Virus record (IMG/VR): IMGVR_UViG_3300023181_000090
Location: 1-20,456 of that record
DNA: 20,456 bases
From: a virus
Strand: one strand, 5' to 3'
Part shown: piece after piece, positions 728 to 20,456 of the stretch
Position numbering within the stretch: the stretch's first letter is position 1
Layout: the number at the start of each line of letters is the position of its first letter
Notes under the pieces: generated by a model
The model's input: the letters and a program-made list of their open reading frames with translations, nothing else
Told to the model about the DNA's origin: nothing
Database searches by the model: none
Program-made: the position numbers and the translations under genes

Positions 728-857
728 GATTTATGATTTTTAAATTAATTAGGGGTGCCTTGCTACTAAACTTTGATTTCAAAATATACACCGCTGTCCG
801 TTTTTGTTTTTATTAAGACACTCAAACAGCATTGTGTCAGCTACGTATTTAGCACGC

Positions 858-925
858 TATACTTTCAGAATCTTACTCGTCATCGCTCATGATTAAGGCT
901 CATGTATATTTATACTTTCAAAAAT
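858..925. repeat. Two short direct repeats in the 728-952 non-coding stretch
   Basis: The 225-base gap between the 727 gene and the tRNA holds two near copies of 'tatactttca(g/a)a', at about 858 and 914. On the minus strand they read TGAAAGTATA, twice, about 51 bases apart. They lie upstream of the 727-to-60 unit and could be binding sites or promoter elements. The rest of the gap shows no convincing open reading frame. I see no clear TTG-N20-TAnnTTTG promoter in it. Confidence 0.35.
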
Positions 926-950
926 CCAAACACCCCTCTCCGGGTTTGCA
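923..950 (-). terminator. Terminator after the tRNA gene
   Basis: On the minus strand CAAACCC, a six-base loop and GGG(T)GTTTG form a GC-rich stem with one bulged base, followed by GATTTTTG. It begins immediately downstream of the tRNA 3' end, as expected for a tRNA transcript terminator. Confidence 0.6.
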
Positions 951-952
951 TG

Positions 953-1027
953 TGTAAAGAGCGAGGTTCGAACTCACAGCCTCAATGCCTGAAAACATTG
1001 CGCTCTATCCGGTTGAGCCACCTTCAC
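953..1027 (-). tRNA. Phage tRNA with 8-base anticodon loop (identity uncertain)
   Basis: A full cloverleaf folds by eye on the minus strand. The acceptor is GTGAAGG/TCTTTAC (two G-U pairs), the D-stem GCTC/GAGC with a nine-base loop containing GG, the variable loop AGGCT, and the T-stem GTGAG/CTCGC with the invariant TTCGAAC loop. The discriminator is A and CCA is not encoded. The anticodon stem CAATG/CATTG closes an eight-base loop, TTTTCAGG, instead of seven. Depending on which T is U33, the anticodon is TTC (Glu), TCA (opal/UGA reader) or a four-base TTCA. The alignment U33-UUC-A37 resembles normal tRNA-Glu with one extra base. The 75-base total and intact invariant bases argue against a pseudogene. 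Confidence 0.85.
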
Positions 1028-1386
1028 ATTTTTTAAATTTGTTAGGTGTCAACACATCGGGCACTACCCCTCCCGTGACTCCTTTTAACGATAAGCGAGC
1101 TTACTTGTTAGCTTAGTAGGCTACTGAAACTACTTGCTCCGTTCCCCCTTCCAACTAGGGTCTGCTCCTTCCAAATTTTTAAATCAACGGGTCATCGCTT
1201 TCACTAATCTTTACGACCCGTTGTTACGGTCACCACGCACGTTAAACGCTACTGCCATATTCAGAGAAATTACCACAAAACCCCGAATCGGTAGCTATCC
1301 AATGTCGGGGCGTTGTAGTTCTTTGTTTTTGTTTCAATACAATTATACGAAATATGCAGATAGAAAATTGCAACAATGCAGTTACA
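1028..1386 (-). ncRNA. Candidate structured non-coding RNA upstream of the tRNA
   Basis: A 359-base stretch without a credible gene, richer in G+C than its surroundings and full of stems. Hairpin 1 (1281-1310) pairs CCCCGA+ATCGG with CCAAT+TCGGGG around one bulge and a seven-base loop. Hairpin 2 (1185-1223) is a perfect nine-base stem CAACGGGTC/GACCCGTTG with a 21-base loop. Hairpin 3 (1044-1083) stacks AGG, GTCA and CGGG against CCCG, TGAC and CCT. The minus strand has two TTGGAAGG copies near 1172 and 1152. The strand is inferred from the flanking minus-strand genes and tRNA. Large ornate RNAs next to tRNA genes (GOLLD, ROOL) are known from phages, but I do not recognise this as either. Hairpin 1, followed by GTTTTGT, could instead be a terminator for the 1605-1387 gene. 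Confidence 0.45.
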
Positions 1387-1605
1387 TTAAGGAGTCAATA
1401 TTTCGACATCTAGTATGGAATCTTTGTCAACTACGGCAACGATTGAGATATGTTTAACAGTCGCTCGCCTGGCACACTTCTTTCGTGTTTCGGCGGCGAC
1501 CTGTAAGGCATATTGCTTCATCAAATCTACCAAACCATCTCTAGTTATCGCTTTGCCTCCGAATTCAGTTGCTTCGTCTAATATTTGTTTAGCAGTCTTC
1601 TTCAT
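1387..1605 (-). CDS. Hypothetical phage protein, 72 residues
   Basis: Not recognised. The N-terminal half is an amphipathic helix-rich segment starting MKKTAKQILDEATEFGG, then 'LVDLMKQYALQVAAETRKKCARRA'. The C-terminal third is beta-like. No signal or membrane segment. It begins 12 bases after the stop of the 36-residue membrane peptide and is the last gene before the structured non-coding stretch. Confidence 0.6.
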   Translation of the reverse strand: MKKTAKQILDEATEFGGKAITRDGLVDLMKQYALQVAAETRKKCARRATVKHISIVAVVDKDSILDVEILTP

Positions 1606-14577: not shown

Positions 14578-14603
14578 TTATGGTTAATAGATTAACCATA
14601 ATT
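14576..14603. repeat. 28-base near-perfect palindrome at the end of the early operon
   Basis: AATTATGGTTAAT and ATTAACCATAATT are exact reverse complements separated by AG. The tight two-base spacer suits a protein-binding site better than an RNA hairpin. It overlaps the stop codon at 14575-14577. An 11-base half-site, ATTAACCATAA, recurs at 17534-17544 just ahead of terD. Confidence 0.6.
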
Positions 14604-14622
14604 TATTATGAATAATTCACAT

Positions 14623-14658
14623 AAAAAAGCCGACATAATTGTTTATGTCGGCTTTTTT
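14623..14658. terminator. Strong bidirectional terminator between convergent genes
   Basis: AAAAAAGCCGACATAA (14623-14638) pairs perfectly with TTATGTCGGCTTTTTT (14643-14658), a 16-base stem with a four-base loop. Read from either side it ends in six U's, and it lies between the rightward operon ending at 14577 and the leftward gene ending at 14678. Confidence 0.9.
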
Positions 14659-14677
14659 ACAGTAGTGAATAAATTTT

Positions 14678-17555: not shown

Positions 17556-18113
17556 ATGGAATTGAATTTAGAAAAAGGTCAAAGGGTTGACCTGAAAAAA
17601 GAAGCACCCGGATTAACAGTAGCTATTATTGGTCTTGGTTGGGACGTCAACGCCGGAAATAGTGGCTCATTCGATTTGGACGCTTTTGCATTTTTACTGA
17701 AAGGCGGAAAATTAACATCTACTGCTGATGTGATTTTCTTTGGGAACAAAACAGCTCAAGGCGTAACCCATATGGGGGATAACCTAACGGGTGCTGGCGA
17801 TGGGGATGACGAGCAAATTAAAATTGATTTAGCCGCTGTTGATGCCGCTGTTGATGAAATTCTGATTGGTGTTAACATTTATCAAGCAGTCACAAAGCGT
17901 CAAAACTTTGGCATGGTCAACAACTCCTTCATTCGCTTGGTGGATAGTGTAACTGGCGCTGAAATCCTTAAGTACGACCTAACCGAAGAGAGTTCTATCA
18001 ATACTGGGTTTATTTTGGGAAAACTTTACAGGAAAGACGGAGAATTCAGATTCCAGGCAGTAGGAGAAGGGCTTAATGGCGACATTAACCAAATCGCTGA
18101 TAAATACAAGTAA
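17556..18113 (+). CDS. terD: TerD-family calcium-binding stress protein
   Basis: 185 residues. The TerD domain covers nearly the whole protein: 'LTVAIIGLGWDVN' (GLGWD at 26-30), 'FDLDAFAFLL' (39-48) and the acidic calcium loop GDNLTGAGDGDDE (74-86). 'FGMVNNSFIRLVD' and 'YDLTEESSINTGFILGKLYRKDGEFRFQAVGEG' complete it. TerD proteins bind Ca2+ and belong to ter operons linked to tellurite resistance, phage inhibition and envelope stress. Their exact biochemical role is unsettled. It is the first gene of a rightward unit beside phage lysis genes. A 9-bp hairpin follows the stop. A half-site of the 14576 palindrome lies 12 bases ahead of its start. Confidence 0.92.
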   Translation: MELNLEKGQRVDLKKEAPGLTVAIIGLGWDVNAGNSGSFDLDAFAFLLKGGKLTSTADVIFFGNKTAQGVTHMGDNLTGAGDGDDEQIKIDLAAVDAAVDEILIGVNIYQAVTKRQNFGMVNNSFIRLVDSVTGAEILKYDLTEESSINTGFILGKLYRKDGEFRFQAVGEGLNGDINQIADKYK

Positions 18114-18137
18114 AATACACACACAATTATAAACCAA

Positions 18138-18166
18138 AACAAGGCGGGTTAATTCTCGCCTTGTTT
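18138..18166 (+). terminator. Weak terminator or attenuator after terD
   Basis: AACAAGGCG (18138-18146) pairs perfectly with CGCCTTGTT (18157-18165) around a ten-base loop. The tail TTGTAAAATTT is poor in U's, so read-through into the following genes is likely. It may set a higher level for terD than for the downstream enzymes. Confidence 0.6.
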
Positions 18167-18181
18167 GTAAAATTTAAAGTT

Positions 18182-18328
18182 ATGATATTCACTTTCGCAG
18201 TATTAGTTTTAGGCATTTGGATTGAGAGTAAATTCTCTCCAGGGTTCAGTTTTGAAAATAGCACTGTTTATTTTCACTACACCAAGTCAAAAGGGGCAAG
18301 GAATAAGACCAAATTATTCAGCTACTAA
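18182..18328 (+). CDS. Small membrane-anchored peptide, 48 residues
   Basis: ATG at 18182, stop TAA at 18326-18328. A hydrophobic N-terminus (MIFTFAVLVLGIWI) is followed by a basic, aromatic tail ending KTKLFSY. Its stop shares one base with the next ATG (TAATG), so translation is coupled to the HAD gene, which supports a real gene. I know of no ter family of this size. It may be specific to this locus. Confidence 0.5.
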   Translation: MIFTFAVLVLGIWIESKFSPGFSFENSTVYFHYTKSKGARNKTKLFSY

Positions 18329-19032
18329 TGATTAAGCATTATTCATTTGATTTATGGCTTACACTCATAAAATCAAACCCGACCTTCAAGGAAGAACGGG
18401 CTATGTACTTTCACAAAAAATACAATCCTTTCAAAAGATCGTTGGCTGATATCAAAGACATCATTCGTAATGTTGATTTGTGCTGTAATTCAACGAACGA
18501 AATCGTTGGAAAAAACATCGATGCTTTAGAAATGTATTGCATGGTGCTATATCAAATCGGAAATGACTTGTCTGACTTCTCATCGACTAAAATTAATGAG
18601 ATTTACAGCGACATTGAGGTAATTTTCTTTAGATACAAACCGACGCTGTTCGATGAAAATACCTTATGTACCTTATCTGCTTTGCACAACCAAGGCTCAA
18701 CACTTTCTATTTTGTCTAATACCGGGTTTATAAAAGGGAAGACACTTAAACAATTCATTCAGACAAGCGACTTAAGTCAGATTCCGTTTAATTTTATGCT
18801 GTTTTCTGATGAAGTAGGCCTATCCAAACCTAATCCGATTTTTTTTGACAGAATACAGCATCATTTACCGATTAACGTATTCAAAAACCACATCCTGCAT
18901 GTTGGAGATAATCCGAATGCAGACGGAAAAGGTGCTCAAGGCGTCAATATTCCACACTTCATTATAAACAATCCTCAAATTTCACCATTCACTATTAATC
19001 ATTTATTAGATGAAACGCTATTCCCTGCATAA
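18328..19032 (+). CDS. HAD-superfamily protein of the ter module
   Basis: 234 residues. HAD motifs are visible: motif I 'HYSFDLWLTL' with nucleophile Asp8, motif II 'SILSNTG' (Ser130), motif III Lys167 in 'GLSKPNPIFF', and motif IV 'HVGDNPNADG' (Asp194, Asp199). The second Asp of motif I, used for acid-base chemistry in phosphatases, is Trp10, so ordinary phosphatase activity is in doubt. A helical cap lies between motifs I and II. HAD proteins accompany phosphoribosyltransferases in the enzyme arm of many ter clusters. Coupled to the genes on both sides. Confidence 0.8.
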   Translation: MIKHYSFDLWLTLIKSNPTFKEERAMYFHKKYNPFKRSLADIKDIIRNVDLCCNSTNEIVGKNIDALEMYCMVLYQIGNDLSDFSSTKINEIYSDIEVIFFRYKPTLFDENTLCTLSALHNQGSTLSILSNTGFIKGKTLKQFIQTSDLSQIPFNFMLFSDEVGLSKPNPIFFDRIQHHLPINVFKNHILHVGDNPNADGKGAQGVNIPHFIINNPQISPFTINHLLDETLFPA

Positions 19033-19822
19033 AATACATTCGGAAGATAAAATTCCGTTTTCAGCCACAGACTATTCAAAATTTAAGTTCGGGGATAAAG
19101 ACATTGCCAGGGATTTCGGTTACGCACTGGCTGATGGGTACATAAAAGATCGTTTAATGTACATGGACGATTTAAAGATTGTAGTCATATCATCCCCTTA
19201 TTGTTTTATACCAACCGCCACCTTTGCGATGAAAGATTATTTTGTACAAAGGATAAATATGTGGCTCGCTGAAACCGGACACCCGGTAGTAGAAGAAACA
19301 AAGATTCACCGGACAATCACGTATAAAGAAGACTATGGAGCTTTGTCAGCCGAAGAAAGAATTAATTTAATCGGTAAAGATGGGTTTCACATTGACAAAT
19401 CATTTGTAGACGGCAAAATGCTCATGTTTTTAGATGACATTATCATTACAGGAAGCCATGAAAATGTAGTGAAAAGAATGCTGAAGGAATACAAAATTAA
19501 TGCTGCTTTCGAATTCCTGTACTTTGCCGAGCTGGAAAACAAAAGTATTCATCCGAAGATTGAAAATGATTTAAACTTTGCGTTTGTGAAAGATTTGTAC
19601 ACCTTAGATAAGGTCATCAAGAATGAATCATTCCTTTTCAACACGAGGGTGGTTAAGTTCATGCTGAATGCTCCAGCTAGTGAGTTCAGTACATTCATCA
19701 GGTTTCAGAAAGAAGCGTTTCTACAGACGTTTATTCACCTTGCTATCGGCAACTCTTATCACACAATACCGGATTATCATTTCAATTTTACTACACTTAA
19801 AAATTATTTAAAAACATTTTAA
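19010..19822 (+). CDS. PRPP-type phosphoribosyltransferase of the ter module
   Basis: 270 residues. 'KMLMFLDDIIITGSHENVVKRML' (residues 136-158) is the PRPP-binding loop of type I phosphoribosyltransferases, with the two acidic residues (Asp142, Asp143) and TG(S) phosphate grip. Upstream are 'LKIVVISSPYCFIPTATFAMKDYF' and 'HRTITYKEDYGALSAEERINLI'. The C-terminal half is helical and I cannot assign it. Phosphoribosyltransferases of this kind accompany TerD/HAD/ATP-grasp genes in ter systems, where they are predicted to make a nucleoside-like metabolite. The substrate is unknown. The start lies inside the end of the HAD gene (23-base overlap). Confidence 0.75.
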   Translation: MKRYSLHKIHSEDKIPFSATDYSKFKFGDKDIARDFGYALADGYIKDRLMYMDDLKIVVISSPYCFIPTATFAMKDYFVQRINMWLAETGHPVVEETKIHRTITYKEDYGALSAEERINLIGKDGFHIDKSFVDGKMLMFLDDIIITGSHENVVKRMLKEYKINAAFEFLYFAELENKSIHPKIENDLNFAFVKDLYTLDKVIKNESFLFNTRVVKFMLNAPASEFSTFIRFQKEAFLQTFIHLAIGNSYHTIPDYHFNFTTLKNYLKTF

Positions 19823-19832
19823 CTTAAAAATC

Positions 19833-20456
19833 ATGATTGATTTAAACAAGCTCAATACCCGAAAAGAATTCGTTATCGAATTGAAAAAGAACATTGGTTT
19901 AGATGGGCAAAAGGCGCAAGTTGTCTTGGCGCTAGATTATTCCGGCAGCATGAGCCAATTGTACGGCAATGGCTCTGTGCAAAGCCTAGTAGAAAGATTA
20001 ATGCCTATCGCTATGGCGTTTGACGATAACCAAGAGATAGATTTCTATTTATTTGAGAACGGATCAAGGAAAATGAAAGAGAATATCACCTTGTCGAATC
20101 TTGACGGCTACATTCAAAATAAAATAATTGGCAAGTATCAAATGGGAGGGACGTCCTACTCTCCAGTAATTAACGACATTGTAAAAGAGTTTGGAACGGC
20201 TAAAGCTGGCTGGTTTTCAAAATCAGAACCACTAGCTTATCCGGTGTATGTGATATTCATTACGGACGGAGAAAATGCCGATCGTTCTCAAGCCGAGAGA
20301 GCAATTACGGAAGCGAGTAAAACTGGTGTGTTTTTTCAATTTGTAGGCATTGGTGATTCAAGATTTAGTTTTCTGGAAAAACTAGATACGTTAAGCGGCA
20401 GGTTTATTGATAACGCCAATTTCTTTAAAGTCCGTGATTTAGCATCAATGAGTGAT
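19833..20456 (+). CDS. vWA-domain protein of the ter module (TerF/TerY-like), C-terminus cut
   Basis: At least 208 residues, running off the right edge. The MIDAS metal site is complete in the visible part: DYSGS at residues 35-39, the Thr of 'GGTSYSP', and 'FITDGEN'. 'MIDLNKLNTRKEFVIELKKNIGLDG' precedes the domain, as in the vWA proteins of ter operons (TerF/TerY type), which are proposed to assemble with TerD proteins at the membrane. It begins 10 bases after the phosphoribosyltransferase stop. Whether a TerD or other domain follows cannot be seen. Confidence 0.8.
   Translation, partial: MIDLNKLNTRKEFVIELKKNIGLDGQKAQVVLALDYSGSMSQLYGNGSVQSLVERLMPIAMAFDDNQEIDFYLFENGSRKMKENITLSNLDGYIQNKIIGKYQMGGTSYSPVINDIVKEFGTAKAGWFSKSEPLAYPVYVIFITDGENADRSQAERAITEASKTGVFFQFVGIGDSRFSFLEKLDTLSGRFIDNANFFKVRDLASMSD

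Follow-up and report, generated by a model that had tools for sequence, protein, structure and literature searches.

The DNA analysed here (hereafter the window) comprises 20,456 nucleotides (nt) of a viral record, IMGVR_UViG_3300023181_000090, and its genes between positions ~83 and 12,500 lie for the most part on the minus strand. Among them, the stretch at 1028–1386 is flanked by a gene for a 72-residue protein (1387–1605, minus strand) and a tRNA (952–1027, minus strand). No credible gene lies within it; the sole long frame that crosses it (1134–1457, plus strand, TTG start) is not conserved. Its G+C content is ~0.45, compared to 0.31–0.39 across most of the first 4 kb of the window. An original prediction, made from the sequence of the window, had remarked on both the lack of genes and the raised G+C, and had proposed a structured RNA adjoining the phage tRNA. 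Both observations are borne out and, for the window, so is the proposal, since covariation supports the fold of an RNA module at 1031–1182 that is the subject of this analysis.

Because the tRNA and the flanking genes run on the minus strand, the RNA was assigned to that strand, which we take to be the transcribed one. The folding energy of 1028–1386 corresponds to z-scores of −1.9 (minus strand) and −1.6 (plus strand), with 4 of 100 shuffled sequences folding as well. Energy alone is only mildly to moderately beyond chance and is insufficient as proof; it is the comparative evidence that decides whether the RNA is real.

Family members and comparative evidence for the fold

A pattern based on the central part of the element (GAAGGAGCAGACCCTAGT) matched four contigs of uncultivated phages in IMG/VR (L003, L104, L105 and L106), and a pattern from the 3' block alone recovered the contigs found with the 5'-block pattern plus L107. 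With the window, these five contigs make up the family. Each contig searched carries one copy of a 150–165 nt block, in which the same text recurs in unchanged order: GGAAGGAGCAGACCCTAGTnGGAnGGGGGA first, next a hairpin that varies, and after it TAAACGGAGTGGCGG, GGGGTAG, CCC and GTGTCCACACC. Identity to the window is 96% for L003 and 60–67% for the remaining members, of which L104, L106 and L107 are 68–79% alike.

We aligned the six sequences (alignment A9) and tested a structure of 29 pairs. Bases can pair in 97.1% of the cells, 15 of the 29 pairs show changes on both sides, and the covariation score is 0.559. When the partner was slid by 1–3 columns as a control, 33–49% of cells paired, 2–5 pairs were double-changed, and scores fell to 0.03–0.145. 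None of 500 shuffles reached the observed values (shuffle covariation, 0.16), and RNAalifold, run without a supplied structure, returned essentially the identical fold. A covariance model built from four members (R2), with L105 and L107 held out, recovered L105 at 82 bits (E = 1e-20) and L107 at 104 bits (E = 1e-26); it gave no further match outside the training set within 175 kb.

The two closest members were also compared directly. The window and L003 differ at 15 positions over 352 nt, and these differences include two compensatory pairs (1137/1095 and 1075/1053) in the predicted fold; at least two such pairs arose in 0.3% of simulations that placed the same substitutions at random (P about 0.003). 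When the presumed transcript was folded alone, the structure of L003 gave two compensatory pairs and that of the window gave one. Since the count changes with the sequence from which the structure is taken, we regard this comparison, on its own, as suggestive.

All members have stops in most frames, which excludes a conserved protein, and no open reading frame is conserved among them. The element has no match in Rfam 15, including at E ≤ 10 for short stretches of two members (L104 and L107). The fold is conserved in unrelated phage contigs and absent from Rfam. With 15 covarying pairs, it apparently represents a new phage RNA class, and we are close to certain that 1031–1182 (minus strand) encodes a member of a real new family of structured phage RNAs, ~150–165 nt in length.

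Architecture of the conserved module

The family-wide unit is a multi-helix junction of ~152 nt closed by helix P1 (1031–1182, minus strand), which scores 152.8 bits in cmsearch and is supported by covariation and RNAalifold. Closing helix P1 leads into a purine-rich junction (GGAAGGAGCAGA), after which come the hairpins P2, P3 (variable) and P4. In P1, AAAUUUG (1172–1178, minus strand) pairs with CAAAUUU (1035–1041, minus strand). Its sequence is nearly wholly different from lineage to lineage, with double compensatory changes in eight of the nine aligned pairs. It is the junction and the loops, rather than P1, that hold most of the invariant residues. The invariant junction (GAAGGAGCAGA) and P2 occupy 1145–1171 (minus strand), where CCCU at 1157–1160 pairs with GGGG at 1145–1148; P2 is nearly invariant and so lacks covariation support of its own.

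P3 (1087–1143, minus strand) consists of a base (1140–1143 with 1087–1090), a variable arm and a heptaloop, CUACUAA, at 1113–1119. Three of the four base pairs at its foot covary, and pairs there take up to three forms; in the arm, pair 1137/1095 is G-C in the window and U-A in L003. P4 (1044–1083, minus strand) coincides exactly with a stem singled out in the original prediction, and homologues keep it with compensatory changes (A-U/C-G, C-G/G-C, A-U/G-C and C-G/U-A). Double changes are seen in four pairs, including 1075/1053 (C-G in the window, U-A in L003), and 100% of cells pair, with a conserved A.A mismatch kept inside the covarying helix. P4 also has an internal GGG(GUAGUG)CCC loop. The inner P4 hairpin never varies, and hence the changes say nothing for it.

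Contacts between loops are also predicted. In constrained folds, five of the six members carry a YYACUAA heptaloop at the tip of P3 that is complementary to UAGUG of the P4 loop; in L105, both the P3 and P4 loops differ from those of the other members. Pairing of the heptaloop with the P4 loop gives 5 bp in five members, a better fit than pairing with the P2 loop, which gives 6 bp in four members and is broken in the window and L105. A loop-loop (kissing) contact of the P3 heptaloop with the P4 (or P2) loop is thus probable.

Three independent hairpins had been expected across 1028–1386. All three are present, but they do not stand as independent units: what is conserved is the single junction-closed domain at 1031–1182, within the stretch originally proposed but shorter than it. 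The other two stems, at 1185–1223 and 1281–1310, fall outside this unit and lack covariation support. The hairpin AACGGGUC...GACCCGUU (1185–1223, minus strand) is conserved only in L003. The longer one (1272–1319, minus strand), which includes the 1281–1310 stem, keeps its stem unaltered in L003 and almost unaltered in a further IMG/VR contig, L002, with loop changes ATAG/TTCG. With stems that scarcely change, neither shows covariation; both may belong to a lineage-specific 5' domain or leader. A scan of GTDB contigs for the upstream-hairpin pattern gave only two chance matches, in unrelated sequence.

Flanking features, gene neighbourhoods and distribution

Upstream of these hairpins lies a promoter-like motif, GCATATTTCGTATAATTGTATTG (1335–1357, minus strand), which is also found in L002 and L003 and would serve as a promoter. 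L002 shares just the first ~130 nt of the stretch (the motif and first hairpin) before its sequence diverges, and L003 carries the entire stretch at 96% identity but has no tRNA, its next gene following immediately. Two Flavobacteriaceae plasmids carry a similar motif immediately before parB. More generally, motifs like CATATTTCGTATAATTG (window 1335–1357; L003:3–19; L011:3001–3034) precede the element, a YopX-type gene of L003 and plasmid parB, and are probably a shared promoter.

On the downstream side, the tRNA (952–1027, minus strand) starts 3 nt after the module. It is real by Rfam (47 bits) and has an 8-nt anticodon loop (UUUUCAGG); ARAGORN cannot assign it, reading ttca (Glu or UGA-type), and a frameshift or UGA-decoding tRNA is possible. 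No transfer-messenger RNA (tmRNA) or intron-bearing tRNA was detected in the window by ARAGORN or Rfam, which see only this separate tRNA. The tRNA setting of the original prediction fits the window but extends to just two of the six members: a tRNA lies 3–8 nt behind the module in the window and L107, and none was detected behind it in the other four. The two tRNAs are different, each is the only one in the sequence scanned, and two independent adjacencies of this kind are unlikely to arise by chance. Directly behind the window tRNA is a terminator-like hairpin, CAAACCCGGAGAGGGGTGTTTG followed by GATTTTTG (927–948, minus strand), a putative terminator. This hairpin opens a second noncoding stretch (728–951, minus strand), absent from L003, which may be another RNA or a control region. 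Its 735–951 portion is ~95% identical to L002:6413–6626, located behind a tRNA-like structure. That structure, a 198-nt gene (L002:6213–6410) with normal acceptor, D and T arms and an anticodon region that holds a 123-nt insert, occupies the site corresponding to that of the window tRNA.

Wherever the flanks of a member were read, the module proved intergenic; its gene context varies. In L107 it lies at 2254–2407, followed by a tRNA-Met at 2414 and then terS and terL; in L104 it lies between terS and terL. The window module and tRNA are followed by genes for 82- and 126-residue proteins, where the window ends, and in L003 the module is followed by the same two genes and then terS and terL. The L105 module is found among helicase and primase-like genes, immediately behind a stop codon, and terminase queries found no match in this 65.8-kb record. 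The L106 module adjoins a gene that is primase/helicase-like by sequence, with only a weak terminase match ~11 kb off.

Several other features were recorded in these contigs. The large-subunit terminase gene of L104 (L104:3433–5247) has an in-frame, intein-like insert, which shows up as a split of its match to the L107 terminase into two. A putative HNH-like (homing-type) endonuclease gene (L003:3820–4437) lies just upstream of the RNA element in L003 and is absent there in the window. The window itself has a very strong hairpin with a T-run at 14578–14661 (z-scores of about −8 to −9 for either strand), probably a bidirectional terminator, and ends with genes for TerD, a HAD hydrolase, a ComF-like phosphoribosyltransferase and a TerF-type vWA protein (17556–20456, plus strand), opposite to most of the phage genes.

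The promoter-like motif on Flavobacteriaceae plasmids suggests a Bacteroidota host for the window phage, and the L104 and L107 terminases distantly resemble those of Caulobacter phages. Given these two indications, the distribution of the module appears to cross host phyla. Searches of other collections added no members. Blastn with the element and other members against cultured phages, plasmids and E. coli returned chance matches and matches to the promoter motif, but no homologue. In 395 Bacteroidota genomes, searches by sequence and by model yielded only A+T-rich chance matches and one 25-bit fragment. Model R1 found nothing beyond the known family in 80 terminase-related viral loci, and no module was seen in the 11.3 kb examined of MW202545, the closest TerL relative in the cultured-phage collection. 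An exact-word search of open papers for the conserved sequence words of the element was likewise negative. The module is rare, and its sparse distribution across phages suggests horizontal transfer, by which it probably moves.

Proposed role and comparison with known RNAs

We suggest that a promoter near 1335–1357 would drive minus-strand transcription. Where a tRNA follows, RNase P would cut at its 5' end and so free the upstream RNA, with P1 nearly flush at the 3' end. The product would be a stable RNA whose invariant junction and loops allow it to act, as RNA, on a partner from the phage or the host. Our best overall explanation, one that we favour modestly, is a new phage RNA family that gives rise to a stable RNA, which RNase P would set free in members with a tRNA behind the module. 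Action in trans by a stable RNA with such release, taken as a claim of its own, is tentative and somewhat less likely than not. An extended version is more speculative and, on balance, improbable: a new class of ~150-nt trans-acting RNAs, passed horizontally between phages whose hosts belong to different phyla and, in members with a tRNA behind the module, cut out of the tRNA co-transcript by RNase P, with P3 and P4 kissing around the invariant purine junction, which would bind a conserved host machine (such as the ribosome, RNA polymerase or RNase P).

Several points weigh against release and action in trans. The element is known from sequence comparison, at the DNA level. A tRNA adjoins it in two of six members, and L003, 96% identical to the window, has none. 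The members number only six, of which one pair is nearly identical and three (L104, L106 and L107) are 68–79% alike. Furthermore, same-strand genes follow the module in the window and L003, so it could instead act in cis. The main rival is a cis-acting leader or intercistronic element of the late (packaging) operon, such as a put-like RNA that alters RNA polymerase for processive antitermination, or a regulator of the riboswitch type. The modules of the window, L003, L104 and L107 adjoin or precede terminase genes that share their strand, a promoter-like motif precedes the element in the window, L002 and L003, and strong conservation of the junction would suit binding of a ligand or polymerase. 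However, the module has no fixed place relative to genes: it can precede or follow terS, lie among replication genes or come right after a stop codon (L104, L105). The conserved fold includes neither a terminator nor a start codon. As the L104 and L107 terminases are of one lineage (76%), there are at most two independent cases of terminase linkage, and we consider a cis-acting leader unlikely, if still a serious contender.

The position of P1, whose end is 3–8 nt from the tRNA in the window and L107, also fits a processing element, in which a structured 5' leader, made up of P1 and the junction, would direct or safeguard cleavage of the tRNA-containing transcript by RNase P or RNase III, the released tRNA being what matters. 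This is decidedly unlikely, given that no tRNA was found there in four of the six members and that Rfam RNase P models gave no match even at E ≤ 10. Lower still do we rate a site for packaging, in RNA (pRNA-like) or in DNA (part of cos or pac). Such a site would account for the terminase neighbourhood in four contigs, but not for the L105 module, among replication genes in a record that terminase queries did not match; compensatory changes, moreover, point to selection on single-stranded folding and hence count against a DNA site. That the hairpins are chance structures in a gene-free stretch, with no functional RNA, would agree with the modest energy z-scores of the window itself. This reading is refuted by covariation across six contigs, with the recovery of held-out members also against it, and we give it almost no credence.

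The element was also compared to known RNAs. No tRNA-like domain was found inside the element by ARAGORN or Rfam, as would be expected of a tmRNA or tRNA, and a self-splicing intron is contradicted by the lack of a group I or II match in Rfam and by the intergenic position of the element. The junction text AGCAGACC...AAACGG flanking the variable hairpin resembles CR-II/CR-III of RNase P RNA, a lead unsupported by models: those for RNase P RNA had no match on L104 and L107, and unlike that RNA, of which the likeness would concern the specificity domain, the element has no visible catalytic domain. The put RNAs of phage HK022 are leaders of early operons that suppress termination in cis, with two stem-loops and conserved unpaired bases. 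The element resembles them as a phage RNA with conserved unpaired bases and a possible operon-leader position, but put is shorter and the gene context here varies.

A closer setting is offered by two larger RNAs. ROOL is phage-borne, occurs near tRNA islands and is of unknown role (PMC12286853). The module is also phage-borne, with a tRNA behind it in two of six members, but ROOL is much larger and ornate, with multiple pseudoknots and a multimeric cage; the Rfam model for ROOL does not match the element. GOLLD, a structured RNA of phages and prophages, likewise of unknown role, is often near tRNAs, env-38 by a Met-tRNA (PMC12286853). Both GOLLD and the module are phage-borne and have multi-helix folds with loop-loop contacts (probable here); a tRNA lies beside two of the six members of the present family. 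Many GOLLD members, however, exceed 800 nt and have a conserved 3' half, compared to 150–165 nt and a single junction here, and cmscan with the GOLLD model found no match. The Rfam check advised in the original prediction thus agrees with its view that this RNA is unlike GOLLD and ROOL. The role of folded phage RNAs beside tRNAs is a standing question, to which another, apparently undescribed family is now added. Its defined fold and invariant core provide a testable covariance model and precise targets for deletion, and its ~150-nt size is within reach of direct chemistry, structure determination and genetics. Being unlike GOLLD and ROOL in length, fold and sequence, it is filed as a new RNA family and a member of neither.
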